In this document: one piece after another, positions 22,661 through 48,912 of the stretch | Layout: each line of letters opens with the position of its first letter | Numbering within the stretch: the stretch's first letter is position 1 | Assembly (NCBI RefSeq): GCF_019649055.1 | Contig: NW_026570464.1 | Location: 38,619 to 102,618 of the forward strand | Direction: 5' to 3' | Source of the DNA: Paramacrobiotus metropolitanus | Taxonomy: Eukaryota; Tardigrada; Eutardigrada; Parachela; Macrobiotidae | DNA: 64,000 bases | Translations under genes and position numbers: made by a program | Notes under the pieces: model-generated | Databases searched by the model: none | What the model saw: only the letters and a program-made list of their open reading frames with translations | What the model was told of the DNA's origin: nothing

Positions 22661-22873
22661 GTTTTCTGTTCGATGTAGCTATGCGAGATATGTAGCGCCA
22701 TATTATATGCATGTTCGGGGCGAGCTGCGGCAATTTGTTGCATCGAGTTTCGCCAAGTGCGTAGCCGAAGTCAATAATAGCTTTGATCAGGCCTTGATCT
22801 GCGCGGAACTCTCATGCTATACGCGGAACTCCTTGATACTGCAAAGTCTTCTCATGATAGGTAAATGAATGAA

Positions 22874-23503
22874 TTACGATAAGGACTGTTTCAGCAAAAA
22901 AGGAGTTACAAAAAAGGACTTAATTAATGTAGTCTCGGTGTGAGAGCTGGCGACGGTTGCGATGGTTCGCAGCAACGGTACCATCGCATCGCCGACGAAC
23001 CCGTGCTCAGTAATGTCGCAATAAACATGCACAACACGACTCTGTTTGCCCGGTCGTAAGTGGTACGTTTGACCACCGGCACCGGCGAAAAAGTGCTTTT
23101 GCAATAAACCCAGCGCCCTCGCATACTCTGATCCCTGAAACGTGAGCTCGGCATCAGGATTTACCACCTGCTGTGCGGAGCTACCAGTCACGTCAATATG
23201 TCCAAAGATGGTGTCTTTGTAACGCAGTAGAAGGTTTATTTTCCGAATTAGTTGATTCTCGTCATTGTATGACTCTTTATTTAAATACCGACTTTGTCTC
23301 AGCGTAGTCGTGGTTTTAACTAGCACTGCCAAACCCACAGTAAACCTGAGACGCATCGGTGGTAAAATAATTTCGGAAAGACCGACTTCCCAGTTTCCAT
23401 CAAGATCAATACCTTTGGCTAGCAAAGTTGTAAATTTCCCACAACGATTTGCGGGATAAATACTGTGAGTTGCGGAAGACAGTAGTGTCATATAGAAACT
23501 CAT
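22874..23503 (-). CDS. Polinton penton-like (minor capsid) protein, truncated C-terminus
   Basis: ATG at 23503 overlaps the upstream TGA as ATGA. The N-terminal FYMTLLSSATHSIYPAN and GNWEVGLSEI match the Polinton minor capsid/penton family in its start region, as does the related gene at 40388. The later VVHVYCDITEHGFVGDAMVP is the family's conserved C-terminal half. The expected closing part (YVP...IEI...VKLHFRP in the B copy) is missing, so it is truncated or frameshifted near 22900. It would form part of an icosahedral capsid. Confidence 0.75.
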   Translation of the reverse strand: MSFYMTLLSSATHSIYPANRCGKFTTLLAKGIDLDGNWEVGLSEIILPPMRLRFTVGLAVLVKTTTTLRQSRYLNKESYNDENQLIRKINLLLRYKDTIFGHIDVTGSSAQQVVNPDAELTFQGSEYARALGLLQKHFFAGAGGQTYHLRPGKQSRVVHVYCDITEHGFVGDAMVPLLRTIATVASSHTETTLIKSFFVTPFLLKQSLS

Positions 23504-24184
23504 TTTAGATCTTCTTTGTTTTCCCAAGAGTCGTAAGCGGGACCGTAACCGTACCAACGTATAAGGTATTGCTGTTTTCCCTTGTACATTCTCTCCCTTA
23601 ATATACGGTGAAACGGTCGCTCGGTCATAATAAATTTTGACAGTTCGCTGGCATAAAGATCTCCATCAATTTTCTCACCTCCTAGGTCCCCTAAAGCGTA
23701 GATGTAATGATTCTGTCGTTTTTTAACTTGTACAATTTTAAAAATTTCTTCAGTGTAATTGGTTTCGTACGTATTGTACAACTGGTTCACGTTCGATATA
23801 CTGCACAACGAGATCGCGCTCGATATACTGCACAATAGGTTCGCGTTCAATATATTGTATTGTGGGCTCACTTTGGATAAATACCGGCTCACTTGGTAGA
23901 TACTGAATAACCGGAGGTTCGGTCGCTTGTGTTGATCCATCAGTAAGAAGATGCGCAGCTTGAGTACCATAGTTCCTTTGCGAAGTTACGTTTGGTTTGT
24001 GTTCGTTAACTTCAGATTCCTTAACGCGTGGTTCATAGTCTGCAGACTTAGTCTGGTACGCGGCCCGAGCCAGCAAATCATGAGTCATGGCACTACGAAT
24101 TTCTTCAGCTTTTTTCCATGATGTGGCTTTGGTCTTGCCGGGTGCAGAAAATTCGGACTAAGGTACAAGAACGTAGGTCTTCAT
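23500..24184 (-). pseudogene. Chromodomain protein resembling a Polinton integrase C-terminus
   Basis: ATG at 24184 overlaps the upstream TGA. A TAG falls at codon 9 (24160-24158), then the frame is open to about 23760, where it shifts. Residues about 95-135 contain four repeats of (E/D)P-x-(I/V)QYIERE. After the shift comes NYTEEIFKIVQVKKRQ, like the SH3-like tail of Polinton integrases. A chromodomain (YLIRWYGYGPAYDSWENKEDL) closes the protein. No DDE core is present, so it is either an integrase remnant or a separate chromatin-reading protein. It ends in TGA overlapping the penton ATG. Confidence 0.65.
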
Positions 24185-24501
24185 TTTGTTATAAATGATG
24201 CAACTAGTGTTCCTAGAATTGGAAGGAGAGCAGCTAAGAATCCTCCTTTTTGCGCTAAAATTGTTCGCTTTTTAACGTGTGAAAGTTTTCTGTCGGCTAA
24301 ACGCTTAATTATCGGTGCAAAACGTTGTGCTCTGGCTAAATCAACTTTACTCAAAGCCGTTGGTTGCTTCACCAAATTTAAACAAGCTTCTTCAATTGCT
24401 AAAATTTGTTTTTTAGAAGCAACCTGTAAAACATATCTACGCAGTCGTGGATTCATAATTTCCAAAGCGCGTAGTATACTGAGAACGTCTTCTGGATTCA
24501 T
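24181..24501 (-). CDS. Small basic core-like Polinton protein with hydrophobic C-terminus
   Basis: 106 residues, intact. The N-terminal helix-rich half (VLQVASKKQILAIEEACLNL) is followed by a basic segment (KLSHVKKRTILAQKGG) and a hydrophobic tail (FLAALLPILGTLVASFI). Small proteins of this layout sit beside capsid genes in Polintons and resemble adenovirus-type core/membrane-lytic peptides. Both its start and its stop are ATGA overlaps with its neighbours. Confidence 0.7.
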   Translation of the reverse strand: MNPEDVLSILRALEIMNPRLRRYVLQVASKKQILAIEEACLNLVKQPTALSKVDLARAQRFAPIIKRLADRKLSHVKKRTILAQKGGFLAALLPILGTLVASFITK

Positions 24502-25133
24502 TTTTCCACGTATATTTTCCAGTAGTCGAATATGTTTGACTGTAGCCTTAGCTTGTCAGGTGTATCATGACGGAGATTTATTACCAAATAACCAAAAGGT
24601 TCCTTTATAGCTTTTTTGTATGCATCACACAAATGCGGCATACCTAGCTGGCGAGAAAGTAGTTTAATCTGTTGTACATCACGTACAGATTTAAATGAAA
24701 TTAAATATTGGGAGTTAAGAGAGATATCTCTTATGCTTTTACCTTGTTTGTATAAATTTTGCGATATAAAGATAACGGAAACATTTTTATGATGCACATC
24801 TCTAGTACATATTGTCGAACACGTTGCGTTTTTTGATATTTCTTCCATGAGATCATCAAGAATAAGTAGCGTAGGCGTATTTCTATCAAAAAAATTTTCA
24901 TCTTCCAAGATTTTATCCATTCCAGGCAGCAGCTCGATGGACTTATCAAAATTACTGCATGTCTCTTGCCATGTACCGTACGCATATACTATACGTATGG
25001 GCGCGGGTGTGAAATTATCGGGAATACTCCGTAAAAGTTGCACTGTAAATGTCGATTTTCCGGACATAGTTGGACCAGAAATATAAAGTGAACAAGGAGT
25101 TTTAAATCTGAAATCAAAAGTCACCTTTTCCAT
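24498..25133 (-). CDS. FtsK/HerA-family genome-packaging ATPase
   Basis: 211 residues, intact, ATG at 25133. Walker A is SGPTMSGKST (about residues 19-28). Walker B is TLLILDDLMEE (about 89-99). The later SVIFISQNLYKQGK matches the sensor region of A32-like ATPases of Polintons and large DNA viruses. It would pump DNA into capsids. The stop overlaps the next ATG by ATGA. Confidence 0.88.
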   Translation of the reverse strand: MEKVTFDFRFKTPCSLYISGPTMSGKSTFTVQLLRSIPDNFTPAPIRIVYAYGTWQETCSNFDKSIELLPGMDKILEDENFFDRNTPTLLILDDLMEEISKNATCSTICTRDVHHKNVSVIFISQNLYKQGKSIRDISLNSQYLISFKSVRDVQQIKLLSRQLGMPHLCDAYKKAIKEPFGYLVINLRHDTPDKLRLQSNIFDYWKIYVEK

Positions 25134-25276: not shown

Positions 25277-25813
25277 TTATAAATTCAAACCTTCTTGAGT
25301 TTGTTTCGAAGAAGTACAACCAAGGACTACACAGCTACCGGTATGGAAAATATGAATGGTGGCGTACGAAAGCCTTAATTTTAATGCTGGAAACAGCTCT
25401 GGTTCTAGTAGACGTTGCACGGAGAAGTTTTTCGCTTTCTCGTAAAGCTTTACCAAGTTAACGTTGTGTGTATGTTTGTACGTGCAAACGGTATTTGCGA
25501 CACTGCTATCCTTAATGTTTAACTCTATGCCTTGAGTATAAAGCATCATTTGATAACATTTTAAAATTGAATACGATCCTGTAATACTTTTAGCACCGTT
25601 TATTATAGCCTTACCATTAGGGAATAATTGACAGAACGTTTTGTTTTGTAAACTTAAAGTGACAGCATTAAATCCTTTAACGGACTTTGTATTAAGTGGA
25701 AATGACTTCCAAACTTTCTCCAAACGAATCGCTTTGTCGAGTTGGACGGAAAGAATGACGTTACGGATATCCAAGGCTACGAGCAATAATTGCGACAGTG
25801 TCAACTTGGAACC
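25277..25813 (-). CDS. TATA-binding-protein-like (TBP) protein, Polinton A
   Basis: The frame has no ATG near its start (TTG at 25804), so the N-terminus is uncertain. Two TBP repeats are visible. Repeat 1 is LDIRNVILSVQLDKAIRL ... FPNGKAIINGAKS, matching the TBP strand pattern and its F-x-x-G-K-x(4)-G-A-K-S signature. Repeat 2 is ELNIKDSSVANTVCTY ... LEPELFPALKLRL ... FHTGSCVVLG, matching the TBP EPELFPGL signature with a degenerate GK-GAK. Repeat 2 ends at GCTSS with little after it. Its role would be promoter recognition in the nucleus. A TATA-like ATATAAAG lies at 25816-25823 on this strand. A second TBP-like gene is at 38957. Confidence 0.8.
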   Translation of the reverse strand, partial: GSKLTLSQLLLVALDIRNVILSVQLDKAIRLEKVWKSFPLNTKSVKGFNAVTLSLQNKTFCQLFPNGKAIINGAKSITGSYSILKCYQMMLYTQGIELNIKDSSVANTVCTYKHTHNVNLVKLYEKAKNFSVQRLLEPELFPALKLRLSYATIHIFHTGSCVVLGCTSSKQTQEGLNL

Positions 25814-25935
25814 TTTATATGCCTTTCAAGTTAAGACTGTCACAAATAATGCCTTCTAAGCCTTTTTTTTTGACACAACAAACAGAACAGAGTAAATGCT
25901 AAGTAAGATGTGCTAATAAAAACTGAAGCATCCAG

Positions 25936-26382
25936 TCAGACAACAATATCCCGTCCCCAGTGCTGGATGTAGATTTCCTCCATGAGAATGATGAATCCCT
26001 GATATGGTAGTTGAACGGTGCGTCGGGGTTGAGAGAAACGAATCATGCGTCCATATTTCGGGTGGATGCTGACAGTAACGTCCACACAGCCCTGACCCGG
26101 AAGTGAGAACTTCTCAGCGCTTTTATCAACAATGGACCGGTCCATACAGTCCTGCAGCGTGCCGTTTCGAATCATGCCCAACAAACAGTTGATATCGGCA
26201 TATGCCAGACGAACTCCTTTGTCCATGGCCTTCTTCAGCCCAGAACCGTCCGGTTTGGCATCGAACACTAAAAAGAAGCAAACGTCCTTGGGGTTCCAAA
26301 ACATACTAACTACAGCGTTGATTTTCTAGATGGTAAAATCTTCATGCACCCCCAAAACTTTCAAAGCGCATACTGAAGCCAT
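25936..26382 (-). pseudogene. Unknown Polinton A protein with one TAG
   Basis: ATG at 26382 opens a frame of 149 codons interrupted only by TAG at 26328-26326 (codon 19). The rest, from MFWNPKDVCFFLVFDAKPDG to the end, looks like a folded alpha/beta protein with balanced composition. No family is recognised. It lies upstream of the TBP-like gene on the same strand. Confidence 0.5.
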
Positions 26383-26439
26383 TTTGATGTGAACAGTAGA
26401 CCGGTTGACACCAAACTAAATGTTTTTTTTGAAATGTAG

Positions 26440-26715
26440 TTACGCTTGAAGACTTACGATATTGAAATTCCACTGGCAAAAGAACTCGACTGGCGATGGA
26501 GCGCCAGTGAAGTCATAGGAGCTGTATTTGGACAGTGTATCGATGTACTTCGTTTCTAAGCGGTAAAGCAAAGACTCGTCCTGTGCAATTTTCCGCACGT
26601 CACCATTCGTTTGGTCGTTGGCAAGCGAAACAATGGCCGAGGCGCATTCGTGATGGAATTTCAAGGGTAACGGATGAAAATTAAGTTCTGAATGGATGCC
26701 AGTGAACGACGTAAA
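26440..26715 (-). pseudogene. Unknown ORF fragment
   Basis: The frame is open from about 26715 with no ATG (TTG at 26664). It encodes about 90 residues including CASAIVSLANDQTNGD and SPVEFFCQWNF. It may be the continuation, after a frameshift, of the ORF ending at 26721. No family is recognised. Confidence 0.35.
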
Positions 26716-26720
26716 TCATC

Positions 26721-27200
26721 CTACGTTAGATCCCTCAATAAAGTAGTTCCTTTCTTGGGAATTCTCGCGCGACTATCAGAATTCGCATCGGTACTTGTAA
26801 AACGGTCGATTTGAATGACAATCACCCCGGTAACAGTTATGCGTTTCGCCAATAAGCCACTGCCGAAATCCTTCCTGATCGAGGATTTGTTGTGACAACG
26901 ATCGCCGTCAACAGAAACAGGTATGTTGTACGAATCATCACGCACAAATCTGAAAATCTGCAAAAATTCCGCGATCGAAAGTGACAAAGACTTTTCGTAA
27001 CAACGAAAGCGGATGATTTGAATTTTTCCAGAATCTTGAAACTTTAAACGAAAAGATCCAGAAGAGTATTCCCGTTGCGCTGGAGTAAAAGTTAATTCCG
27101 AAAGGTCAAAATCCATTCTGAAAGCGCAGTACCGAAACACTAACTGTCGACAGCAACTATCTTGTGGAGAATTCGTAATAACTGAAGAAAACGTGGTCAT
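26721..27200 (-). CDS. Unknown Polinton A protein
   Basis: ATG 27200, with an internal ATG at 27116 before a better-looking domain. FRLKFQDSGKIQIIRF, then SLSLSIAEFLQIFRFV, gives a beta-strand pair and an amphipathic helix. This is loosely like PC4/Sub1 coactivators, but the match is too weak to call. It ends at TAG 26721. Confidence 0.4.
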   Translation of the reverse strand: MTTFSSVITNSPQDSCCRQLVFRYCAFRMDFDLSELTFTPAQREYSSGSFRLKFQDSGKIQIIRFRCYEKSLSLSIAEFLQIFRFVRDDSYNIPVSVDGDRCHNKSSIRKDFGSGLLAKRITVTGVIVIQIDRFTSTDANSDSRARIPKKGTTLLRDLT

Positions 27201-27535
27201 CGCCAGTGTGGATTAGCCATTGTCAAATCAGAGAGAATAAGACAGAATGTGGGTCATCGCCAGTGTGGACTAGCCATTGTCAAACGAGAGAGAACGAGAC
27301 AGAATGTGGGTCAGCGCCAGTTTGGATTAGCTAAGGAACAAAGAATCTAGATCAGCGCCAGTTTGGATTAGCTAAGGAACAAAGAATCTAGGTCAGCGCC
27401 AGTTTGGATTAGCTAAGGAACAAAGAATCTAGGTCAGCGCCAGTTTGGATTAGCTAAGGAACAAAGAATCTAGGTCAGCGCCAGTTTGGATTAGCTATTG
27501 AAAAATGAGAGAGAATGTGGGTCAGCGCCAGTTTG
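27197..27535 (+). repeat. Minisatellite, about 8 units of roughly 40-55 bp
   Basis: Units share GTCA(G/T)CGCCAGT(T/G)TGGA(T/C)TAGC. The central four are about 41 bp and almost identical (TAAGGAACAAAGAATCTAG). The first two are longer (GAGAGAA...GACAGAATG). The array lies between divergent genes. Confidence 0.85.
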
Positions 27536-27602
27536 ATTTCTGAAAACGACGTGGTCTATCTTAGCTGTCCGGAATAGGAATTCATTCGCAATTCTGAACG
27601 CC

Positions 27603-28673
27603 ATGGATCAGTACAAAGGTTGTTTATTAGGCGCTCTGATCGGAGAATGCATCGGAACACCCCTGAGACGCGCTACCTCCTGCCACATGAACTTGGCGGG
27701 AGTGCGGAGCAGGGTCTCGACTTACTGGGAGAAATTCTTATTAACGCACGCTTACGCCAAGTCTCTACTGGATACCGGCTTCTTTTCTTTGGAGAATGCC
27801 GCACGGCAATGTAGCCAAACATTTTACCACAACTACACTAGACGCCGAGCTTTTGGTGAACTGACCACCATTATTGCCAGTTAGAAACATTCTCCCCAAA
27901 AAGAATGGACCGCTGCTGCTACAACAGTCCGTAACCGGGGCACAGAGTGTAACGCTGCCACTTGGAGAACAGCGTTTCCCTTGTACTTTTACAATCGTAC
28001 GGAGCAGATGAATTTCTCTGTAGACCGTGTAGCCCGACTCACCCACTCTTCTCATGACGCCGCCGCTGGAGCACAGTTGCAGGCCTACGCCATCAATCTG
28101 GTTCTAAAGAATAAAATGATGAAGGAGCTTGAGTTTCTCTCCGCTCTTGTTGACTACAGCAATAAATCTCTCCCCGATTATGTGCGTCGGAAATTTTATA
28201 CACGTGTCATGATGGTGCTGGACTACGCGCAACGCGATGAAACAAAGGAAAAATTGTTCAAAGCCACTGGCGTCGGCACCAGCCCTTTGGACGTAGTTCC
28301 AGTTGCCATTTACTGTGCTGCTATTGGTCGCCGCAGCGATTGCCCCTTTGAAGCCACCCTTCATGCGGCAATGTTAACCGGAGGATGCACTGATGCCATT
28401 GGGACCATGGCTTGTGCCATTGCAGGAGCCTGGTCCGGATTCTCAGGTATACCTGACGAAACGGTGGGCATGTGGGACGGGCAGGAGCAAGTATATGCCT
28501 TAGCCGAAGATCTGTACAAGTACGTTTCCACACTGCACGGCCCAACGGACCGCTCAGCACTTTTGAAAACTGGCCACACCTCCTGCCTTCTGCCGGCGCC
28601 ATGGCGAGGACAGGACTGTACTACACCGGATCTGATGATACAGTTAAATGTCATTTCTGTCGGTTTACAATGA
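27603..28673 (+). pseudogene. ADP-ribosylglycohydrolase (ARH/DraG family), Polinton A
   Basis: One frame from ATG 27603 is broken only by TAG at 27882-27884. The start YKGCLLGALIGECIG matches the ARH N-terminus. THSSHDAAAGAQLQAYA (about 28035) and GGCTDAIGTMACAIAGAWSG (about 28377) are family motifs. The enzyme class removes ADP-ribose from protein or other targets. The usual GGDTD is GGCTD here, so one metal-binding Asp is lost, and no clear N-terminal TDDT is visible. Activity is doubtful. After about 28535 the frame runs over a BIR domain encoded one frame away. Confidence 0.82.
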
Positions 28674-28711
28674 GCAACTGGACACCGGGAGATCCATACA
28701 ATGACCATTAG
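28553..28711 (+). pseudogene. BIR (IAP-repeat) domain, truncated, probably fused to the ARH
   Basis: Frame 2 relative to the ARH encodes LSTFENWPHL ... ARTGLYYTG ... VKCHFC ... WTPGDP..DH, the BIR fold with C-x2-C and the following His. The last zinc-binding Cys (His-x6-Cys) is lost because of a stop right after the His. There is no start codon of its own nearby, so an ARH-BIR fusion broken by a small indel at 28535-28560 is likely. Confidence 0.75.
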
Positions 28712-28945
28712 AAATATAACCGAAATTGTATTTTTGTCAAAGATTGTACTGCTACTCCTGCGTATGTTCTTGCGGTATGATTTGTTTTACTTTGTTCGTT
28801 GTTATTCGGTGAAAACAAAATAAACGAGGGTGGGGAAAAATAAACAAAAGAAAGGGAAAAGTAAGACTCGGTCGGTCTCGGCCCGGTTCGGTTCGGTCGG
28901 TCTCGGTTCAGTCTCGACCTTGTTCAGACCGTTCGGCTCGGCTCT

Positions 28946-29035
28946 GGCCAATCAGAGCGAGGGGCGTGTCTGACCAATCAGAGCGGGGGCGTGTCTGACC
29001 AATCAGAGCGGGGGCGTGTCTGACCAATCAGAGTG
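28946..29035 (+). promoter_or_regulatory. Array of four CCAAT boxes with GC-rich boxes
   Basis: GACCAATCAGAG (first copy GGCCAATCAGAG) recurs four times at about 25-bp spacing, with GGGGGCGTGTCT between. NF-Y-type CCAAT boxes with GC/CACCC-like boxes suggest the U3/promoter of Gypsy B. GTCGGTCTCGG/CGGTTCGGT repeats precede it (28865-28915). The giant element's LTR has a single related CCAAT-GC pair. Confidence 0.7.
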
Positions 29036-29287
29036 TCCCTGCTATTCTAGCTAACATACTACTTGCACTCCGTCCGTGTTGAAAATCATCCGCCCTGAAG
29101 TATTTTTGGCCGCCTTTCTGCGCAGAGAAACTTTTTTAAATTACTATACCGTTAAAACTGGAGGAGCAGACGCAGCGGAACAGTCCTGTTATCGGTGGCT
29201 GGAGTGTCTGAACCCGGCTTAGGTCACCGGACTTAGCGCAAACTCCGCAGAAGGAGAAGTCGAATAACATGACTGAAGCAATCCGGA

Positions 29288-32203
29288 ATGACATCGAAAG
29301 GTCACCACCCAGAACTGACGGATTGTCATCTCAAATCGATCCCACTCCCACGAATAACGAAGTTGCGAAAAAGATTACAGAAATGGATGAAAGAAAACGA
29401 CCATAAGATTGTTGTGTATGAAAGGTCACCAGACGAATCGAAAAACAGCGAGGACGACGAGATTGCCCTTGCAGATGAGATCACGCAAGAAATCATGGCA
29501 AAGTTGCAGGAAAAGCCGTCCAAAGACGTACACAATGAAAGGTCACAATACGAAGTTGTCGCGCAAGTTACGAAAAGTCACGAGAACGCACAAGACAAGG
29601 GGTTAATGTGCGAGGCGGCAAAGGTCACGGGCAAAGAAATCGCTGCGAAGGAGCAGACGGATGCCTTACCGAAGTCAAAGCGGATTGGAAAGTTCTCAGA
29701 TGTGCGACCCGACGTACCGAAACGGATAGGTCGATGGAGCTCAAAAGGTCTGATAGAGAGCAAGCACGCTGCGCCGATCCCAGTTAAGTGTCGAATAAGA
29801 GGATGACGAGGATGACGAGGAAGAACGAGAAACTGAAGCTGAAGATGATGAGCCGAAGTACTCTGCAAAAGTCAATGCAGGAAATGTCACCGAACTTCAA
29901 CCAAGAAATGATTCGGGGCAAACGGCTATCCCAGTACCAGAGGCACAGGGATCGGAGGATAATAAGCAAAATGAGAATGGTGGAAGGCTAATCCCAGTAC
30001 CAGAGGCACAGGGATTAGAAAATGCTGAAAGAAGCAAAAGGTCACCGAAGTTGAAAAGAAAACAGAGATAGCCAACGATGAAACAGATCAAGATAATGCA
30101 AGCAGAAGCGCTAATTGCAAAGAAACAGTCGCTAGTGCCAGGAATGGAGTGGTCAAGGCTAATCCCAGTACCAGAGGCACTGGGCACGAGAATGGTTGGG
30201 CCCAGGAAAGAGCCAGGACTGATGAATAACGACGGAAGAGCACTATTCTCGGAAATACGAGACCAGGCCAGGAAGCAACTGGATACGAAGAAAGCGGAAC
30301 ATGGTTCTCAGCATATCCTCGAAAAGATGTGGCAGAGCATAGCCGTCAGATTACTTCCGAACCACGCTCTGCAGATGAAATCGAAGTCATCGAAATATCA
30401 TCAGATAACAGCGTAATTGAAATCGAAAAAGATGACGAATGGACAGATACGGATTCGGGAGAAAAAGATAAAAGCGTTATCATCCGCCCCAAACCAAGGG
30501 AAAGGATGCCAGAAGGGAATAACCGCGTCGTGTCCCGTAAGCCAAGAGAATGGACGGCGGAAGAGAGAGCAACCTCTTGCCATCACGACTGGCACGACAG
30601 CGATGACCTTTCGATAGCACGCCCTCAAGAAAGATGTGCAAAATGCATGCAAGAAATGACGCAAGATGACCTTTCGGAATGGCCGAAATGCAATGCAGCA
30701 ATTGCACGCCACAAAAGACAAGAAGAGAAAGAGGTTAAGTCGATTATGAGAACACTTCCCATGCCGGAATTGTCAAAAGCAACTTATCTCTGGCAATGTT
30801 CCCGAGAATGGTTATCTGTAGTCAAGAATTACATCGTTTCCAGAGGGAAGTGGCTCCATCATTGGCAGCAAGAAGCTGATAACTTCATTCCCGAAAAGGC
30901 GGATAAAAAATATCCATGGTACACAAACCCCATCGCAAAGCTCGACAGAGAAAGGCGACGAGCAAGGGAAGAAAACGAAATATGGGAACAAGCTAGAGTC
31001 GACTTATTCTGGGAATTCCGAGTTAACTACCTATGGAAAGGTCAAGGAAGAACGGTCACTTTCCCAATTGGACTCGGCACAGTAGTGTACGAATTATTTG
31101 ACCTTTACCAGGCTTGCCTCAAAAAGGGGAACTTACGAGAATGGAACAAACAATGGGGCGAAATCCTCGAAGAAGTACCGATATTCACAGGAGAAATCCC
31201 GGAGTTACATGTCACGCTAAAAAGACGCGAACTTGGATTATTTGGTTACCCAAGAAAGAAGAAGGTGACCTTTGCAGCAGATCCAGATGGAGTAGAGTAC
31301 CCCGAAAGAGGCGGAGATACTTGGTGCATGTATGAAACGGTACCAGAAAATGACCGGACAACAGAAGAGTTGATGGCAAATTGCGTCTTTATCGGCGATA
31401 AGAGACCTAAAGGTCACGGCACAAGCGCTGAAAAAGAAAGCGGCGTAAGTGCCGAAGAAATTAAAGAAAAAGGACAAGAAGTCAGAACAAGCGGTGTTCA
31501 AGAAAACGGCACAGGCGCCGAAGAAGAAGAACCTACACACACGGCGTATGAGCTGTCTCAGATGACCAAGGAACTGAACCAAGCGATTCGGGATAAGGAA
31601 AATGGAATCCCGGTAACAGAGGCAAAAAAGGCTCAAATGTCTCCGAAGGAGAAAAAGGAGAAAAAAGCAGCAGCGTTGGTTGGATCACTTCAAAGGTCAC
31701 TCGGCAATTGTGAGGAACGGCCACCAACCGAGAAGAACGAAAGGTCACTAAGCGCGATGCTGAAAGAAAAAGAGCCAGAAAGGTCAGTTCCTAAAATTGA
31801 CGAAAGGTCACCCGAAACTGGTGAGGAAGGGCCACCAGTTGGAAAAGCAGAAAGGTCACGGAATACTGCTGAAGCAGTCGATAGCTCGGAAGACGGGGAA
31901 AGGGATAGGTCACGAGCAAGGATTCGCACGACACGAACAAATCTAAGGATAACTGCACGAAACGGACGAAAGTCCAAGGAATCGGACAAACCTCTGCCCG
32001 AAAAACGGAAAACGAAAAAACTTAGCGCTTCCAAGGATAAAAGCGATGACCTTTCAGCAGAAAGTGAAGACAAAGGCGTCGATAAGCGACCGCTCGAGAA
32101 AAGGAGCAAAGATCAAGCGCTTCAGGCTAATAAAGCAGCGAATCCGACTCGGAATTCTCGAGTTCGAGCGATAACTCAACCACTTCTGAAGATTCCGGAG
32201 TGA
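29288..32203 (+). pseudogene. gag: Gag-like polyprotein of Gypsy B, frameshifted
   Basis: 29288-29806 and 30329-32203 share a frame. Between them coding moves to another frame (acidic EDDEDDEEERETE, then two IPVPEAQG peptides). The protein is very rich in Lys, Glu, Arg and Ser. About 30750-31370 is the most protein-like region (LWQCSREWLSVVKNYIV, WYTNPIAKLDRERRRARE, DLFWEFRVNYLWKG, ELFDLYQACLKKGNLREW). It is probably the capsid domain, though I see no firm match. Recurrent ERS and DLS peptides are encoded by the octamer AAAGGTCA read in either orientation. Confidence 0.55.
29928..30184 (+). repeat. Three hairpins with ACCAGAGGC(A) loop in Gypsy B
   Basis: ATCCC/GGGAT at 29928-29952 and 29991-30015, and CCCAGT/ACTGGG at 30164-30184, all enclose AGTACCAGAGGCAC-type loops. 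The same loop is found in the giant element's protease gene. Confidence 0.6.
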
Positions 32204-32436
32204 GTGACCTTTCAGATCAAGAAGATCTGCTTGACCTCGACGAAGACGATGAAAAGAACGAACAACAAGAGAAAGAGATCATTGTTCGAAGGATAAAAGT
32301 GCAAAGAGCAGGAATCCCAGAAGGAGCAATTATAGTTTACAGTGACCAACGAGTCAAGTTAAGACCAAATCTTGCAACGCGTGTAAAGGTCAAGATGGTA
32401 GCTCATGTACCCCGGAATCAGAAGCTGATGTATTAA
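32200..32436 (+). CDS. Pre-RT segment of Gypsy B Pol (beta domain), partial
   Basis: The ATG overlaps the gag-like stop by 4 nt (frame change). An acidic start is followed by VRRIKVQRAGIPEGAIIVYS, a beta-rich segment like that before RT in the giant element. TAA at 32434 ends it; the sequence up to 32571 continues the domain in broken frames. Confidence 0.5.
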   Translation: MSDLSDQEDLLDLDEDDEKNEQQEKEIIVRRIKVQRAGIPEGAIIVYSDQRVKLRPNLATRVKVKMVAHVPRNQKLMY

Positions 32437-32571
32437 GCAACTCCTCAAAAGGATAACGAAGTCCGACCGAGAACGGGAGTCACGGACCATAACGGCACAC
32501 GGTTTGAAATCGTAATAGAGAACCGAAGCAAAAGCCGAAAGACTGTAAGAAAGGGCCAGTTCCTCGGCTAC

Positions 32572-34216
32572 GTGAAACATTACGAACACCTTGAGAACGT
32601 AAAGGTCAACTCGGCTGCCGTCGTGAAAAATATACTAAAAGATCCCGAAGTGGACGCAAAGACGAAAGAAGAATTGAATGATATCATCGAAAGACTAAAG
32701 TTAGCACCATACCTAACTGAAGAACAAAAGAATGACGTGCGAAATGCATTTTGGGAGTTTTGGAAAGTTCTCCCCACATCAAAGCAACCGTACGGCGATG
32801 TCAAAGGGGTAACGCACACTATTGACACAGCCGATGCAAAACCGGTTAAATGCAACCCGGCAAGAACAAGCTGGAAAGGTCGCGAATTCATCACAAAACA
32901 CATCGAAGAGATGTTGCAGCAAGATGTCATTGAACCATCCGATGCGGAATGGAGTTTCCCGGTCGTATTGGCCGCGAAGAAAAATGGCGACGTAACTATG
33001 GGAACAAGATTCTGCGTCAATTACATTTTGCTGAACAAGTTTACGAAAAAGAATAACTATCCACTGCCGAACCCGGATGAACTGCTTGACGCATGTGCGG
33101 GAAACAAATATTACGACAAGATGGACTTACAAAGTGGCTTCTGGCAGATCCCAATGGATCCTGCCTCGAAAGGCAAGACGACCTTCGTCACGCAGGACGG
33201 AATATTCCGTTTCAAAAGAATGCCTTTTGGAGTCTGTAACGGACCTGCGAACTTTCAACTTTGCATGGATAAATTCTTGCCGAACGCAAAGCGAATGGGG
33301 TGCGTTTTCGGCTACATAGACGATGTCATCTTCGCAGGGAAGACCAGGGAGATCTTTATGCAGAACTTAAGGAATGTCTTTCAAAGTCTAGTTGACGCAG
33401 GTTTCACAATTAAGCCGACGAAATGCGAATTCGGCATGCGCGAGATGGGATTCCTGGGGCACATCCTCAGCGAGAATGGCATTAGAATGGATCCCGAAAA
33501 AGTCATGGCAGTTAACGGCCAAAAGAAACCGACAACTGAACGGCAGTTGAGGTCATTCCTCGGATTAGCGAACTATTACCAAAAGTTCGTCCTTTGATAC
33601 GCGCAGAAGACGGCGCATCTTTACGAATTGCTAAGACACGACATGAACATCAAAAGAGATTGGTTAGCGGTCCATGACCAAGAATTCAATGACCTCAAAG
33701 AAGCACTATGCAAGGATCCAGTACTGAAGAAGTTCGATCTGACGAAGCCGACAGTGATCGAGTGCGACGCATTAAAGGAAGGCTAGGTGCGATCTTGTCC
33801 CAAGATGGACATCCCATCGCATACGCAAGCCGCGTTTTGCATGGAGCAGAAAAGAATTACGGAGTAACAGAATGGGAATGCCTGGCGGTAGTCTTCGCCG
33901 TCAGAAAGTTCAAGTCGTACATCGACTACTCCGAATTCACAGTAAGAACGGATCACAAAGCTTTGACGAATCTTCTAAGATCGGAGTCGAACAAGTCATG
34001 TATGAGTCCAAGATTGACAAGATGGGCATTGGCACTTCAAGGTCACCGATTCAAGATTTAATATAAGCCGGGAAAATACTGCGACAACGCGGATGCCCTT
34101 TCAAGAGCGCCAACTGAAGGTCCCACTTGCAACGAAGAAGGGTATGATGAAATTCCAAACTTCGAAGATTACAAGAACGAACTCAACAGAGAAGAACCTC
34201 CGATTGAAGTTTGGTA
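32572..34216 (+). pseudogene. pol: Gypsy B reverse transcriptase and RNase H
   Basis: RT at 32572-33597 has RFCVNYILLNKFTKKNNYPL, FWQIPMDP, PFGVCNGPANFQ and catalytic YIDD (about 33316). TGA at 33596 falls in FVL|YAQK. The frame then continues to about 33770 and shifts into RNase H (GAILSQDGHPIAYASR, WECLAVVFAVRKFKSYI, RTDHKAL, 33790-34061), with TAA in FKI|YKPG. The tail to 34216 reads IPNFEDYKNEL as in the giant element (PNFEDYKDEI). No integrase follows, so the element is cut there. Confidence 0.88.
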
Positions 34217-35756
34217 ACTCTTCCTACAGTTAAGCGAGGAAAGGGAAGAAAGGCTAAAGGCCGACAGCGAGTTCATATCCGGGCAATGATCTAACCTCAC
34301 CTTTGGGATGGGTCTCACCTAGATTACTCGTTTACACTAACAGCGCCCACACGCATTGGTTACAGATCACGCGAATGTGTAAATGTCGTTACACAAGGGA
34401 CTGTTTCATTTTCAGGAGCATACAACACGAGAACGCGGTAATGTTGCAGGCTTCAGCGCTTGCATCTACGTTAAAGGTTTCCTCAGCCAGCACTATTTTA
34501 ATAATTTCACAATAGATAAGTCCCATATGGTCAGTACCAAGCGGGAAAAAAACAAGCATTGGTAGACCGATGACCCATACATGTGAACGCATTAATATTT
34601 CAGCATACTACAACATAAACCGATTTGCACCCACTAGAAACAATCACACAGTAGCGAATCAGCGGAATTATCGACGCTTAATTATTCAACCTAAAATGAA
34701 TTCAAATTTTCACGCATACTACAAAGGCCACCGGTGTGAGGCTATCAACCTCATAACGACTGACTGAGGTCGCCGCTTTAAACGTCTGATCTGGTCTTCA
34801 TTCGTCAGATCTTCTGGAAGAGAATGTATGATGTCAGATAATGCTGAAAAAAATATAGCAGAGTCCAGGCAAAATAAGTCGGAAACGGCACGCTATCCAT
34901 GTGGTAACTTCGGATTAACGCTATAAGTTATAACAAATGTTTAACATAGCGCTTTATAAATCAGGAGAGAAGAACATGGCCGTGCCGATGGCCGTGCCGT
35001 TCCTGCGGTCGGAAGTTCTGCAATCTAAAAGTGTACAGTGCGCGCCTTTGCCGTAGATAATTCTCTTTTTTGGCGCCATCCATGTGATAAATGATAGTCA
35101 AATCGTGATCACCCTGTTTCGCGGACTTACTTTTTGGAGTTAATATAATATATATTTTCGTTGACGGCGCGCGTGCGTCAAGTTTTAGCCAAAGTAAAAG
35201 CAAATAATCAAGGCCACCAACTTTGAGCTTCTGAGCTATGAAATAAAATCTCTCAACAGAAAGAACACCGGGAGGTTGTATCCTCTTACAAATACGAGCA
35301 AGTGCACGAGAAGAGATGCCATTATTCACTACTGTATCAATGGGAAGGCAAAATCAGTCCACCTGATATTCTGACAGCGGCGGTATGCCTGCCTGAAATT
35401 TGGCGGTATGCCTCGTGCCCCGTTGAGGCCTTAATCATGTAGCCGCCAGTTGTTGACCGGGTGTCGGTCACATTCAGCCTAACTACTAATATTGCAGGCC
35501 CGGAGGCAAAGATGGCCGCAAACGTCATGATGGGCAACGGAAGCACCTTGGCCGACCCGGTGCGCTCCGAAGACACTGGGCTTGCACGGCCCAGACGGCA
35601 GTCGCCGCCCGTCCTGTTCAGCTGGGGAGCATAGTTTCATATAATTGCTCTATCGCCCCTTCGACGAAGGAGAAGCAAATTATATGGCGGCACCAAGACA
35701 ACACGATACGCGAGGGCGCTGCGATCTACTCTGTAAAGGGGCATTATTAAACCCAC
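34217..35756. other. Unassigned sequence
   Basis: No convincing gene. A minus-strand ORF at 35329-34961 (122 codons, no family) and one at 35576-35337 are the longest. A GGCGGTATGCCT(G/C) direct repeat lies at 35381-35411. Probably decayed mobile-element or host intergenic DNA. Confidence 0.4.
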
Positions 35757-36269
35757 ATGTCGATTAACACCAGCAGCACGCTATCTTTGCACGATGTCAA
35801 CCGCGACTCGGTAGATGGCAGGACGGTAGATTGTTTGGAGTCTTGTAGGAGCAATGGCGACATAATGTTTTACATTAATACATACATCTTGCGGCCGGAG
35901 CTGCTTAGCACAAGCGACGCTTTTATCACACCCCTTTACAATGTGTCCTCAATAAACAGAACCTTTTCTATGACTTGCAGCGGACGGATGGACTGCAGCT
36001 GGACGGATCCAGCACTGTATTTCTTTTGGCAGCTTGATGGGCAAAACGTTTCGGCGTCATATCCTGGTTTTAACAGCAGTGGCACCACCGTGCCCGGTCT
36101 TGGTAAGTGGGATATGGAAACAACCTTCATTGCGTCTGTGGCCGGAGTTTCAAATACTTTCTGCTCTATCACATTGCACGTGTTTATTAGGGAGAAGGCC
36201 AAGCCGCAGGTGGCCCGGGTTGAGTGCTGGTTCCGCCCTGATCTTCTCAGCAAAATGGGCTTGCCCTAG
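35757..36269 (+). CDS. Possible Ig-like extracellular domain protein
   Basis: 170 codons from ATG 35757. FSMTCSGRMDCSW ... YFFWQLDGQNVS ... METTFIASVAGVSNTFCSITLHV has the Cys, Trp and Cys spacing and alternating strands of an immunoglobulin-like fold. Several N-glycosylation sequons are present (NRT, NVS, NSS). No signal peptide or membrane segment is visible, so it may be an exon or a viral or host fragment. The match is by pattern only. Confidence 0.4.
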   Translation: MSINTSSTLSLHDVNRDSVDGRTVDCLESCRSNGDIMFYINTYILRPELLSTSDAFITPLYNVSSINRTFSMTCSGRMDCSWTDPALYFFWQLDGQNVSASYPGFNSSGTTVPGLGKWDMETTFIASVAGVSNTFCSITLHVFIREKAKPQVARVECWFRPDLLSKMGLP

Positions 36270-36308
36270 ACGCTTACGCGCACTACCCGCAGGCTGGGGA
36301 TTACAACT

Positions 36309-36336
36309 AAAAGAGCACCTGTCGGTGCAGCTTTTT
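36309..36336 (+). repeat. Stable tetraloop hairpin flanked by A and T tracts
   Basis: AAAAG, then GCACC-TGTC-GGTGC, then CTTTTT, 40 nt after the Ig-like ORF. It looks like an intrinsic terminator, but its role in nuclear DNA is unknown. Confidence 0.35.
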
Positions 36337-37710
36337 GTTTTTCTGAAATGCATTTATGACAGTTGTAGCTGTCATGCATCTAGCGAAATTTATCGTATTA
36401 ACCCCAAGTGGGGGTGTTCGATGGTCTGTTGGAATGTTTTTCATGAAGAAATGCTATTGATTAACCGCAAAAATGGTTTCAAGAGGATGTTTATTAGCGG
36501 AACGCATAGTAAGACTGAACAGCTTACCGTTGTGAAAATGCGACGACACCAGCGGAAGCGTTTTTAAACTGGTGTAACGCGCCCTTAGAAGGCCGCTGAA
36601 AGCGCGCTAAAACATTTTGAGGAAAGCAAACGGAATTAATGCCATGTGCTTAATCCAAGCACAATTCACGGGCAGATAACCAGACAGAGCGCAATTTTTC
36701 AGTAATGAAATATGGGTTCGGGGTACGATTTTTGTCCGGGCAATTTGGTCAAGACAGGGTTAACAGTCGCACACTTTGGTCGGGATGCCGGGGCACCGGT
36801 GTGGGAAATGATGCGCATCGAACGCTTCTGTCAAAAGACGGTTGACGTTCGAAATTTGCATTTCCAACGCGATTTACGGCCGAACGCTTGTAATTTCGCG
36901 CGAATTCCTTACCAGCACTTTCGAGGAAACATACGTAATCTGTGCCCTGAAGCTTTAGTGGAAACGTCATGGTTAGTCGTCGGACACGCTTTGTAAATAC
37001 AGTCGGTACGTGAACTGCGCCTGGACATCATGTTCGAAGCATAAAATGGTCGGATTTGGCCGATGATTCTCGTTTCTAAAAATCGAAGGTCAGAAAAAAC
37101 GGAGAAATTTACTGGTGTCCAAATTATGTTGATGTCTTCCGCAGCAAAAGATCAATGCCTAATTCCGAGGAGGTTTTCCTCCATCTCCGAGACCAGCAAT
37201 CTTGAACGAAACAGATCCATATATGAACTGCAACATTTTCGAGAGCACTGGTTGGCCAGAAGGGCATCATTGATGATTCAGTGTAACACGAAGTTCCTAG
37301 ACTTGGTGTCCTTGGTACGGAAATTCTGTTTTTAGAATGCTTTCGTAGCAGTTCACTCGGTATATTTTTTAAAAATCTCCGTTTCTGTTACAGCTGCCGG
37401 CAGTTGCACATGGCTGCACTGTTGGACACGGTGCTTGAGTCACGAGCCAAGTTGGTGCACTAAACTTCTTGTTCCGTTTAACATCAACTTCTGGATTCCC
37501 TAACCCACAACAAACCTGAAGATCGAAACACTGACGCGACTGCATGCCATTTTTCGCTTTAAAGAAAGGATTTAAGACGATATTCCGAACAAGGCTTCAC
37601 CTGGTCTCGTAACGCAGATTATTGAATTTTTTAATCAACTCTCATTTTTGATGCTGGTCAAACGGTTGAACCATTACCGTGTGCATGGTATGTTCGTTAC
37701 CATTCAACAA
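36337..37710. other. Unassigned AT-rich sequence
   Basis: No ORF with recognisable composition; short ORFs on both strands look random. No repeat, RNA gene or promoter could be supported. Confidence 0.4.
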
Positions 37711-38268
37711 TTAATACGACACGCAAAACCTTAAGGACTCATCTCTCTTCCGTGCCAGTATCGCATTGGCACAACGTTCCGAAATTTCACATGGATTGAT
37801 CACACCCTTTCGTAACATGTCCTGAATCTGTTTGAACGGGCAGAAACAGAATCCTGAATGCTCGAACGTTTGCGCGCTAGGAACCTTATTGTAGGGTTCG
37901 TGAATCCCCGAAACCTCAGTAACGATTTCTTTGGTCACGGATATCGTAATCCCCGGGACCTCAACTTCATTCACGTTCTAAATCCCCGCGACTTCGGTGG
38001 CGGGTTCTTGGGTCTCCGGGATCGGAATCCCCGGGACCTCGACCTGACTTCTCCAACTTCTTTTGATCTCGTTGCGCTTAAGCAACACAAAACTAAAAAA
38101 CTTTTCGCGATCGGATAATGCCCTTATCATATCAACTTTTCTCACTTCCTTCCCACCTTGGGAAAAACCCGGTTCTAACAACTTTAACCCGTCGAGTCCT
38201 GCGGGATCTGTATCATCATATGCCCTTGCGGTCTGTTCTCCAGTAAATTGCAGCCAGGCGAATTGCAA
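37711..38268 (-). pseudogene. Relic of a Gypsy Pol (linker and RT start)
   Basis: 37974-37711 encodes IQDMLRKGVINPCEIS ... RDESLRFCVSY, a degenerate copy of the Gypsy RT entry motif (M-x-x-GVI-x-PS ... LRFCVDY). Upstream in the same direction are two copies of a roughly 70-bp unit encoding EVPGI(P/T)I(P/S)(E/V)T. This recalls the IPVPEA peptides of the other Gypsy elements here. Confidence 0.55.
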
Positions 38269-38766
38269 GATTCTCCAGTAAGCTCAACAAGGTCTGTTCC
38301 ACCGCAAGTACCGGACTCAGTTTCAGTACCAACCGCTGGAACCGGAGCGTCACCAGCCACGCCAACTCCGCCACAACCACCGCTACGGCCGGAATCAGGA
38401 ACTACGTCGACATCAGCGCCTGCTGCGGATTGGCCATATCGTCTTCCATTGGGTGCTTTGAGTGGATACACGTTGGTTTGGTTGGATCCCCCGGGAGCGC
38501 CTCCCAGAAGAACAGACACAGCGACCCCTGGGCGTGCTGCAGCAGGCTATCGGCTGCAACATGAATTCAGACGGTTCGTATACCGTCTGCACTCGTTTCA
38601 ACACCGGAACTGGACACTGCGTACCGCGTCAGCGGCGCGTTTTGCGAGAGCCGGCTTCTTTTACACGGGATTGCGGGACCTACTGAAGTGTATTCATTGT
38701 GGACTAGATTTGGAAAACTGGGAGCCGCATGATGACCCACAAGCTGAGCACGACTGGCATAGTTGA
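38248..38766 (+). CDS. BIR (IAP-repeat) domain protein, Polinton B side, C-terminally cut
   Basis: The frame has no ATG; a TTG and a possible splice acceptor (TTGCAG) sit at its start. Residues about 1-95 are Pro/Thr/Ser-rich. The BIR is at 38563-38766: RLHSFQHRNW ... AGFFYTGL ... LKCIHC ... NWEPHDDPQAEH, with the C-x2-C-x16-H spacing. As in the A copy, a stop falls a few residues after the His and the final Cys is missing. BIR proteins of insect viruses block caspases. Confidence 0.78.
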   Translation: MQPGELQDSPVSSTRSVPPQVPDSVSVPTAGTGASPATPTPPQPPLRPESGTTSTSAPAADWPYRLPLGALSGYTLVWLDPPGAPPRRTDTATPGRAAAGYRLQHEFRRFVYRLHSFQHRNWTLRTASAARFARAGFFYTGLRDLLKCIHCGLDLENWEPHDDPQAEHDWHS

Positions 38767-38956
38767 ACTTCCTGCTGACCAGATCGCCCGCCGCAAGAAA
38801 ACTGATGTTAAAACTGACGTTTTTGTTTAAAAAAAACAGAATATCGTTTTTTCGTATGTTTATTAGTTTATGGCAGAGCAGTGGTCTATTAAAGCGGAGA
38901 AGACTTAATCAAAAAAAAACAAACAAATTTAACTTTGATAAAGATCCATGTGAAAA

Positions 38957-39292
38957 TTAAAACAGTAGCAAGCGAAGTTCGGGTGCCGTAGTACGCACAG
39001 CCAATTCCGACTTTGCACCCAAAATATTAACTTTACCAGAGGTAAAAATTACACAAGTTGCTTCGGGTAGATGGACGCTTAGACCAGGAAACAGTTCAGG
39101 TTCATAACAAGGCCGGTAGCAGTGCAGCTTTTTAAAGACGTCATTTAGTTTCAATGGTCTATACACATCCCAAGACGCTACTACATTAACTATTTCGAAG
39201 TCGGTAACGTACGCATCGGTATAGCCTACCATGTGCATATCGTGTATATCAGCCGTTAAGCGGTGAAAACAGCCAGTACGCAACGCCTGCAA
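38957..39292 (-). CDS. TBP-like protein, second repeat only, Polinton B
   Basis: About 111 residues. The match to the C-terminal half of TBP is strong: VTDFEIVNVVASWDVYRPLK, CYEPELFPGLSVHL and FTSGKVNILGAKSE, in the right order and spacing. It opens at TTG 39292, right after a CTTGCAG acceptor-like sequence. It may therefore be the last exon of a gene whose first half is lost or not recognised. It lies 190 bp from the BIR gene, convergent with it. Confidence 0.82.
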   Translation of the reverse strand: MQALRTGCFHRLTADIHDMHMVGYTDAYVTDFEIVNVVASWDVYRPLKLNDVFKKLHCYRPCYEPELFPGLSVHLPEATCVIFTSGKVNILGAKSELAVRTTAPELRLLLF

Positions 39293-39336
39293 GTTCCGTT
39301 TCTAGGTCACAAGGAAAACGGAAAGTGTATGAGGAC

Positions 39337-39808: not shown

Positions 39809-40356
39809 ATGGAACCGTCGTAAGCGTCGCAAACTAACTGTATTATTCGTTCACAGGGCGTGAATTTTACAGCAAACCAGTTCAAAACTACATGAAACAG
39901 AACGGCGTCGTTATGTTTTCTGAAGAGAACTGTGGAATTAAGGCTAACATGGCAGAACGATTCATCCGAACGTTACGAGAGCGTCTCATGCGACTGATAA
40001 CCGCTCGTGATGGGAGTGTAAAATATTATGACAAGTTACAGGACATTATTGACAGCTACAACAGCACACCTCACACGGCGCATGGATTGGCGCCGAATGA
40101 CGTCAATCGAGAAAATTCGCTTTTGGTGTTTCACCGATTACAGTCCAACGATAAAAACAAAAGCAAAGCCAAGGTACCGCTATTTAAGGACGGAGACACA
40201 GTGCGTCTTCGTTTGCAAAAGCAGCTTTTTAAAAAAGGCGCTGATGTGAAGTACACAAAAAAGCTATATCGAGTGAACAAGGTAATCAAGCATCGCGTAC
40301 CTGTGTATGAAGTGGAACCTGCCGACGGTGGACCCAGTGTAATTGGAAAGTTTTAG
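39543..40356 (+). CDS. Polinton integrase C-terminal half, with a candidate spliced upstream exon
   Basis: From 39857 the frame encodes REFYSKPVQNYMKQNGV and ANMAERFIRTLRERLMR (catalytic Glu region of the DDE core). The tail is LFKDGDTVRLRLQKQLFKKG, ending GKF without a chromodomain, typical of Polinton integrase. The N-terminal two thirds is missing. An intron 39736-39856 (GTGAGT...TTCACAG, 121 nt, containing a CA microsatellite) would join it in frame to 39543-39735, an unrecognised acidic/Lys-rich segment. Splicing is inferred from signals and phase only. Confidence 0.7.
39753..39806 (+). repeat. (CA)n microsatellite inside candidate intron
   Basis: About 26 CA dinucleotides interrupted once (CACACCCACA). 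Confidence 0.95.
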
Positions 40357-41960: not shown

Positions 41961-43242
41961 ATGCCTGAATATCTGCTACCACACTCAGAGCCGGCCATGT
42001 CTAGTGACATGAACCTGTTCTCCGTACCGGCATCGTTAGCGGAACGTTTCAGCTATGAGACACAAGAGTATGGACCAGAATCGGCGCCTCCAGAAAACTC
42101 ACCATTAAGCGGTAACTTATCTTTCTTTATCCTGCCGTCATCCAACGGTCTGCTTTCGCTCACGGATACGTGTTTTGAGTGTGAATTAAGTATAAAGAAA
42201 AGTACGCCACAAGTGCATGGGTGAACCTAGAGATCAATGATAACGTAGCGCCTGTTAATTATATTGTGCATAGTTTGTTCAAACAAATTCATTTTACTGT
42301 GGCGAACAAGGTGATCTCTGACTGTTCACCTTATTATCCCTATCGAGCTATAATGGAGGTTCTAACAAGTTATACTGAAGATGCCATGAAAAGCCAGCTA
42401 ACGAGCGGCGGATTTTATTTCGACACACCAGGCAAGATGGAACATGCCACAGAGAACGCTGGTAAAGCAAAGCGCAAGGAGCTATTTGCTTTAACTGCTA
42501 GCGCTCAGTTATCGGGAAAGATTTTCACCGACTTATGCGTACAATCAAAACCTTTGCTCACAGGCGTCTCCGTGCACGTTAGCCTATACTTTAACAATTC
42601 AGAATTTTATTTACGATCATGGAATACTGGTGCGGCGGCTGCAACAGAATACAAGGCATTTATGAAACATCCACGCATAACCGTACGACGCTATATCCCA
42701 TCACCGGATTTCATGAACGCTGTTACACAAAAAATACAAACCACAACAGCCAAATACCACATTGAACGCGCAGAATTAAAGGCGCGTGCTATTCCTGCTG
42801 GCACCCAAACTATAGCATTTTCCGACTCAAGTACGGCCAACTACCTAAGGTGGTATTTATTGCTTTTGTGCAATCGGACCGCTTCCATGGCACAGCAAGC
42901 CTCAATCCGTTTGTATTTGATCATTGTCGCGTTCGTCAAATCTGTATTAATGTGGATGGGAAGCAATACCCAACGATACCCTACATGTGTGACTTTCCAA
43001 ACAACCGCTATTTACAGTGTTATGACGGCTTCCTGGATGTTTTGAATCAAAAAAACCAGCCAGCTGGAGCCCATATTCTGGATCGTCATACATACGCAAA
43101 AGGATACACAGTGTTCGCTTTTGACCTGACGCCAACGGCTACAGGCTTAGGACCCATGACGCTAATTCGATCAGGGACAGTGGGCCTGGAAGTAACTTTT
43201 GACACACCACTAACTATTCTTATCAAATGCTGGCTTGGATAA
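41961..43242 (+). pseudogene. Polinton major capsid protein (double jelly-roll), two frameshifts
   Basis: ATG 41961. SGNLSFFILPSSNGLLSL then a shift near 42195. VNLEINDNVAPVNYIVHSLF and YYPYRAIMEVLTSYTEDAMK are the strongest family matches. A second shift near 42825 leads to GQLPKVVFIAFVQSD, NPFVFDH and YAKGYTVFAFDLTP, ending at 43242. Length and motif order fit the Polinton capsid family. Without the two indels it would be about 425 residues. Confidence 0.9.
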
Positions 43243-43324
43243 CGTGCGACCATTTAATAAAATTCACCAATTTACGCCAGGTTATTTGCGACTTTGCGTC
43301 GTAATTAAACAAAAAATCGTCACA

Positions 43325-48639: not shown

Positions 48640-48912
48640 ATGGACCCTGCTGAGGAAAGGCGTCGAGCGATATGCATTGTCACTACGATTGCTTTTTTTG
48701 GTAGTCTGCTAGCACTTGTTCTGATTTTATCGGGCATTACTCTTGGAACCGCCACCACTTTTCTACCCTATCGGCCATCAGCCGCTGCCAGTATCGACGA
48801 AGCCAACACCACCCTGGACTTTACTTACAATAACGACACAATGCCAACATTCAAGTTCATGATCAAAGGGCTTTGGTACGTAACTGTATGGCACAGTAGT
48901 AAAGTCATCTAA
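48640..48912 (+). CDS. Small single-pass membrane protein, unknown
   Basis: 90 residues. A short charged N-terminus (MDPAEERRR), one transmembrane helix (about residues 11-35, IVTTIAFFGSLLALVLILSG) and an outer part with NTT and NDT glycosylation sequons. A TATA box precedes it. The 3' half overlaps the end of polB on the other strand, so one of the two 3' ends may be wrong. Confidence 0.45.
   Translation: MDPAEERRRAICIVTTIAFFGSLLALVLILSGITLGTATTFLPYRPSAAASIDEANTTLDFTYNNDTMPTFKFMIKGLWYVTVWHSSKVI

Follow-up and report, generated by a model that had tools for sequence, protein, structure and literature searches.

A TATA-binding protein homologue encoded within Polinton elements of the tardigrade Paramacrobiotus metropolitanus

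The stretch analysed here is a 64,000-nucleotide window of the genome of the tardigrade Paramacrobiotus metropolitanus (NCBI RefSeq assembly GCF_019649055.1, contig NW_026570464.1, positions 38,619 to 102,618 of the forward strand), part of contig C244 in our numbering of the 170-Mb genome. It holds two Polinton remnants, elements A and B, and in each of them lies a gene resembling that for the TATA-binding protein (TBP). In window positions, the two genes are:

25280..25825, minus strand: TBP-like gene, copy A; open frame with both TBP repeats, family-homologous part from about 25774
38960..39301, minus strand: TBP-like gene, copy B; reduced to repeat 2 by loss of the 5' half

An earlier note, made from the letters of the window, had assigned both genes to TBP and had recognised both saddle repeats in copy A and only the second in copy B. 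The Pfam profile for TBP (PF00352) bears this out on all points, with highly significant matches of 72.7 and 58.8 bits for the two copies against a cut-off of 22.9 bits; four open relatives reached 72–124 bits. A chance match to TBP is ruled out by these profile scores and by the homologue alignments. A single-sequence protein search with copy A gave no match. The two tandem repeats make up one saddle in copy A and the open relatives.

In copy A the family start is without an ATG, and a premature 3' end leaves the copy shorter than several of its relatives. The nearest of these are 85–93% identical to it, and several are open across the entire gene and begin with an ATG. At the related loci L043 and L048 the gene is complete (173 aa), and copy B corresponds to its second half. 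In P. metropolitanus a large family of Polintons has a TBP homologue, and both window genes are decayed copies of it. Open copies from several lineages consist of a single frame of ~165–205 aa, and one lineage (L044:493-1461) has a C-terminal extension of ~140–160 residues past the TBP core. The host has a TBP gene of its own elsewhere (C4), which appears to be interrupted by introns and encodes a long N-terminal part. A database protein named 'TATA-box-binding protein-like' (P0039) aligns to the C112 TBP gene in two blocks (residues 1–127 at 90% and 114–131 at 94%), which is the pattern expected of a spliced gene model.

Candidate stretches throughout the genome were scored for TBP (150 of 493), the packaging ATPase (150 of 441), the capsid-like protein (136 of 375) and the family B DNA polymerase, PolB (80 of 663); as only these subsets were scored, all copy numbers are lower bounds. 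After merging, the 150 TBP stretches represent at least 122 TBP places, the host place included. Of the 121 non-host places, 101 have a match to the ATPase, the capsid-like protein or PolB at a distance of up to 10 kb (67, 84 and 30 places, respectively; 59 are near two or more), compared with ~5 expected under uniform placement, an estimate that ignores the genomic clustering of repeats. Two of the 30 best TBP matches are the host gene; the other 28 (27 genes) all occur together with another open reading frame (ORF) of the window elements, and ATPase, PolB or protease is present at 23 of these 28 loci. A TBP gene of the copy A type was found directly upstream, on the same strand, in all 12 ATPase loci most like that of the window (window included), although it is split between frames in L038 and L041. 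The TBP genes are thus linked to Polintons. Alternative layouts have TBP head-to-head with the ATPase (L043 and L047) or overlapping the end of an uncharacterised gene (L003, L011, L014 and L030).

At L043 the head-to-head TBP and ATPase genes (604-1122 and 1121-1822) share 2 nt of their start codons, so that each promoter would lie inside the other gene. The conserved gene that overlaps the TBP start by ~10–65 nt (L003:1743-2177, L014:1739-2194, L030:1062-1562 and L011:816-1289) matched no Pfam family above the cut-off and nothing in a PDB profile search; the one copy compared with PHROGs had no match there either. The Polinton load of this 170-Mb genome is heavy, with a minimum of 149 places for the ATPase and of 126 for the capsid-like protein.

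The ratio of non-synonymous to synonymous substitution rates (dN/dS) was 0.07–0.20 in 26 of 31 pairs of TBP genes, the other five having no usable dS and several more having saturated dS; for the 13 pairs with dS under 1 it was 0.09–0.20. These low values indicate that the TBP gene was maintained by selection while the elements spread. The phylogenetic tree comprised 56 rows, L027, P0104, P0105 and P0107 having been left out (a first tree had 60 rows). A branch with support of 97/99 separates 15 P. metropolitanus Polinton TBPs and 26 of 28 environmental rows from 15 others, namely eight eukaryotic rows, five that we take to be archaeal-type and two environmental ones. The host TBP pairs with human TBP (99/95). 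Topologies holding the Polinton TBPs together with host TBP were rejected by the approximately unbiased (AU) test (p-AU 1.7e-89; p 0.0026 with the environmental rows included), in tests that were named after the first tree had been seen and with long branches present. The Polinton genes therefore fall outside host TBP and are not nested within host TBP pseudogenes. Five lines of evidence (sequence, structure prediction, synteny, selection and phylogeny) speak for a TBP in these Polintons: the elements encode a two-repeat protein of the TBP fold that is kept by purifying selection.

Relatives of the protein also occur outside this genome. With nine Polinton TBPs of P. metropolitanus as a profile, 112 proteins were matched, ~60 of them close to the family and mostly from metagenome contigs; a profile of the Polinton ATPase gave 578 matches, and 120 of these were compared with the TBP matches. 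On the two sides, three environmental contigs (14,236, 20,036 and 14,660 bases) agree in source and size, and on this agreement they are taken to carry TBP and ATPase on one molecule. Among viral contigs of IMG/VR, three TBP alignments and one ATPase alignment gave 176, 97, 55 and 112 pattern matches, none of which was confirmed, and five element proteins had no match in PHROGs.

The DNA face of the family has a signature of its own. Residues were counted over the P. metropolitanus rows with a letter at the given position and over 60 environmental rows (P0048 left out). A floor position of repeat 1 is Asn in 14/14 Polinton-family and 60/60 environmental rows, and one of repeat 2 is Leu in 15/15 Polinton-family rows and in 53 of the 56 environmental rows with a letter. 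Eukaryotic TBPs have Thr at both positions (8/8 and 8/8); the five archaeal-type rows have Thr in five at the first and Thr in three and Val in two at the second. These two Thr contact central TATA bases, and the stirrup and DNA-contact residues have known roles in TBP. The four DNA-inserting aromatic positions are kept (Phe 14/14; Phe or Tyr 14/14, with 4 Phe and 10 Tyr; Phe 15/15; Phe 15/15), copy A having all four Phe, and so are the two contact Asn (13/14 and 15/15 rows). From its sequence, the Asn/Leu pair that replaces the two Thr is predicted to shift base preference away from host TATA boxes. The change to Asn is suggestive because ORF24 of Kaposi's sarcoma-associated herpesvirus (KSHV) is described as requiring four Phe and several extra Asn in its DNA face for late promoters (PMC12529657).

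Compared with cellular TBP (a TFIID subunit; PF00352), to which it is 24–27% identical, the Polinton TBP is without the long N-terminal extension, has Asn and Leu for the two Thr and sits on a separate branch of the tree. It resembles KSHV ORF24 and the other herpesvirus TBP mimics in being a TBP-like factor of viral type; the available text on ORF24 describes a mimic that picks viral late promoters and uses host RNA polymerase II (PMC12529657). Unlike the Polinton TBP, a nearly bare core of ~175 aa, ORF24 contains additional domains and acts together with other proteins of the virus. As in giant viruses and mirusviruses, TBP is here encoded by a DNA virus-like genome, and the BFVD matches of the Polinton TBP include Heterosigma akashiwo virus and Terrestrivirus. 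One megavirus is described as encoding both TBP and TFIIB (PMC11464507), and TBP is given for 59% of mirusvirus genomes (PMC10132985); unlike Polintons, these viruses have large genomes. With Polinton/Maverick elements and adintoviruses, the elements studied here share PolB, ATPase, cysteine protease, integrase-like and capsid-like genes (for the typical Polinton gene set and size of 15–20 kb, see the account in PMC4028283). The TBP gene sets them apart in so far as no Polinton TBP gene was found in the literature searched, the coverage of which leaves many subscription papers outside; in the accessible text of PMC12220804 the word TATA occurs only in the reference list, as an author name.

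PC4-like proteins are possible partners of the Polinton TBP. The genome has 10 PC4-domain matches, the best-scoring of which (C41) was taken as the host gene, and eight of the nine others lie 1.2–1.8 kb from a scored TBP gene. The PC4 domain is recognised in the relative L003 (1.9e-8), and the profile of the element PC4-like family matches PC4 in the PDB (5.4e-5). TFIIB-family Pfam matches occur at only three genomic places, none of them on a contig with a listed TBP gene, though a very divergent TFIIB could escape this search. No RNA polymerase gene was noticed, and no search was aimed at one. Viral TBPs are mostly accompanied by a viral TFIIB, a TFIIB-like protein being detected for almost all TBP-bearing viruses according to the available part of PMC7221094, whereas none was found near the Polinton elements. 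The elements would therefore depend on host TFIIB or bypass TFIIB.

A candidate promoter element precedes copy A:

25814..25819, minus strand: TATA box preceding TBP copy A (TATAAA within ATATAAAGG), 45 nt ahead of the family start

Ten of the 11 related loci L032–L042 have a TATA match ahead of their TBP start, at −44 to −47. We scanned 45 non-redundant 120-nt upstream regions for sites at −90 to −21 and compared them with 300 shuffles. TATAWA was present in 6/45 regions (shuffled mean 1.5; 0/300 shuffles as high) and TATTWAA in 3/45 (shuffled mean 0.83; 10/300 as high). All six TATAWA cases precede TBP genes of the copy A clade, the gene before TBP, or PC4-like genes. Counting either motif by position, with near-duplicates and overlapping loci included, sites were found for 16 of 27 starts of the gene preceding TBP (−43 to −56), for 9 of 17 starts of PC4-like genes (five at −49, three at −77, one at −112) and for 11 of 47 TBP starts (ten at −44 to −47, one at −73). 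Judged from the sequence, this pattern fits promoter use by the element TBP. The three TATA-like sequences that the earlier note had placed upstream of Polinton B genes (45664, 48535 and 52956) are all real.

The likeliest reading, and in our view a probable one, is that the intact protein would serve the element in the host nucleus as a promoter-recognition factor of its own. The self-directed transcription suggested by the earlier note would be the best-supported function, although TATA-like motifs are enriched upstream of some genes only. The Polinton TBP would insert its aromatic residues into the minor groove and bend the TATA-like promoters of the element, and the bent promoter would then pass to host TFIIB and RNA polymerase II. 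We infer this hand-over to host factors because no TFIIB gene lies near the listed TBP genes and no RNA polymerase gene was noticed, none having been searched for. The PC4-like protein of some of the same elements would aid opening or initiation, and the altered base preference predicted for the Asn/Leu pair would make the element genes selectively read.

Several observations weigh against this proposal. Both window copies of the gene appear broken. The stirrup that contacts TFIIB is only partly kept, its first Glu in 7/15 and its second in 13/15 rows, and the usual viral pairing of TBP with a viral TFIIB, as far as sequence can tell, has no counterpart here. TATAWA at −90 to −21 was seen in 0/25 regions classed as internal, in a split between first and internal genes that was made after seeing the data, and TATAAA comes only 13th of the 15 listed in an unbiased 6-mer ranking; TATA boxes would moreover serve host TBP too. 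Finally, a scored TBP gene (from 150 of 493 stretches) within 12 kb was seen for the ATPase at only 66 of 149 places, for the capsid-like protein at 85 of 126 and for PolB at 36 of 77, a converse linkage that is weaker and may reflect undercounting or many elements without a TBP gene.

A rather unlikely alternative is that the protein works against the host as a TBP decoy, lowering host transcription or silencing by binding to host TFIIB, TFIIA or promoters. The conserved TBP surface with its partly kept TFIIB stirrup would suit such a decoy, as would the BIR genes, of a host-manipulation type, in some elements. However, a PC4-like positive cofactor is encoded close to TBP at no fewer than eight places, and the family conserves the DNA-inserting aromatics, not all of which a pure decoy would require. 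Improbable, too, is an architectural DNA-bending protein that serves replication, transposition or packaging and not transcription. The TBP gene stands beside the ATPase or PolB in several layouts, and PC4-like proteins can also bind single-stranded DNA in replication, yet TBP-specific features (two unequal repeats and an EPELFP-type stirrup) persist in part, and TATA-like boxes lie ~43–56 nt before some gene starts. That the genes are captured or pseudogenised host TBP copies merely adjoining Polintons, as the damage to both window copies could suggest, is scarcely conceivable and is refuted by more than 100 linked places, by the purifying selection seen in dN/dS, by the grouping of host TBP with human TBP (99/95) and the AU rejection of its union with the Polinton TBPs, and by a repeat 1 signature unlike that of eukaryotic TBP in every row with a letter.

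TBP is the common starting point of archaeal and eukaryotic transcription and marks where the reading of a gene begins. With a TBP of their own under selection at more than 100 genomic places, and apparently in environmental relatives too, Polintons can carry a general transcription factor; the viral TBPs in the literature examined, as far as its available text goes, belong to larger DNA viruses. The Polinton TBP offers a concrete handle on promoter choice in these elements, and its family-wide residue signature predicts an altered DNA preference. If its specificity is indeed altered, a nearly bare TBP of ~175 aa would allow a clean comparison with cellular TBP and the herpesvirus mimics. More tentatively, extending the role in promoter recognition, animal Polintons might run an orthogonal core-promoter system, in which the rewired TBP (Asn and Leu) and the element PC4-like factor define element-only promoters and recruit host RNA polymerase II, with neither TFIID nor a viral TFIIB involved; the TBP lineage itself would have branched off ahead of the diversification of eukaryotic TBPs. 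Such a system would be the smallest known virus-like genome with TBP-based initiation of its own.

Elements A and B are Polinton remnants, the capsid-like and integrase labels being the weakest. Around copy A, element A contains:

24501..25133, minus strand: DNA-packaging ATPase of Polinton type (A32/FtsK-like), immediately downstream of TBP copy A; Pfam Pox_A32 4.9e-4, 20.1 bits, below the 22.8 cut-off
24184..24507, minus strand: small conserved ORF after the ATPase, in the same order in related loci
23503..24157, minus strand: conserved ORF (23753-24157) and overlapping open frame (23503-23985) ending in a chromodomain; Pfam Chromo 5.2e-9
25939..26325 and 26443..26715, minus strand: two ORFs upstream of TBP copy A that are conserved in related loci

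Some environmental homologues of the ATPase are assigned to PF04665; a PDB profile search with the ATPase gave no relevant match. Polinton integrases can bear chromodomains. Around copy B, element B contains:

49820..52088, minus strand: family B DNA polymerase of organellar/viral type; core 49820-51439 (Pfam DNA_pol_B_2 2.7e-37), frame 51510-52088 probably its 5' part
48781..49362, minus strand: conserved ORF adjoining PolB, beside the TBP gene in relatives
44980..45483, minus strand: N-terminal part of a PC4-like protein, by alignment to the family; the frame is without the PC4 domain itself
43214..43876, plus strand: adenovirus-type cysteine protease; Pfam Peptidase_C5 0.0015, below cut-off
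42185..43239, plus strand: capsid-like gene, broken into two overlapping frames; labelled from gene order and a sub-threshold double-jelly-roll match (DJR-like 0.093)
39838..40353, plus strand: C-terminal part of a retroviral-type integrase, a weak assignment; Pfam rve_3 0.039, below cut-off
38188..38763, plus strand: gene with a BIR (inhibitor-of-apoptosis) domain; Pfam BIR 1.4e-15; neighbour of TBP copies of the B type

In relatives, Peptidase_C5 lies above the cut-off at L045 (7.4e-5) and just below it at L052 (4.1e-4). The capsid-like gene is conserved in place and has open relatives elsewhere in the genome; Pfam and PDB profile searches gave no support for the label, and a single-sequence fold of its ORF (predicted local distance difference test score, pLDDT, 33) was too poor and was left unused. 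BIR genes near TBP occur in several elements (L003:675-1274, Pfam 2.1e-21; L048:1826-2305, by 90% identity), which suggests a Polinton anti-apoptosis cargo.

ADP-ribosylglycohydrolase-like genes adjoin both Polinton remnants, at 27537-28670 on the plus strand and 45811-46581 on the minus strand (best Pfam E-values 2.6e-24 and 3.5e-16). The 31-kb Polinton-bearing stretch is bracketed by inverted repeat arms of nearly 1 kb (21744-22680 and 53061-53998), with blocks that are 70–100% complementary. A Gypsy-type polyprotein with reverse transcriptase, RNase H and integrase lies at 6292-9969, and the AT skew flips between the two outer parts of the window.

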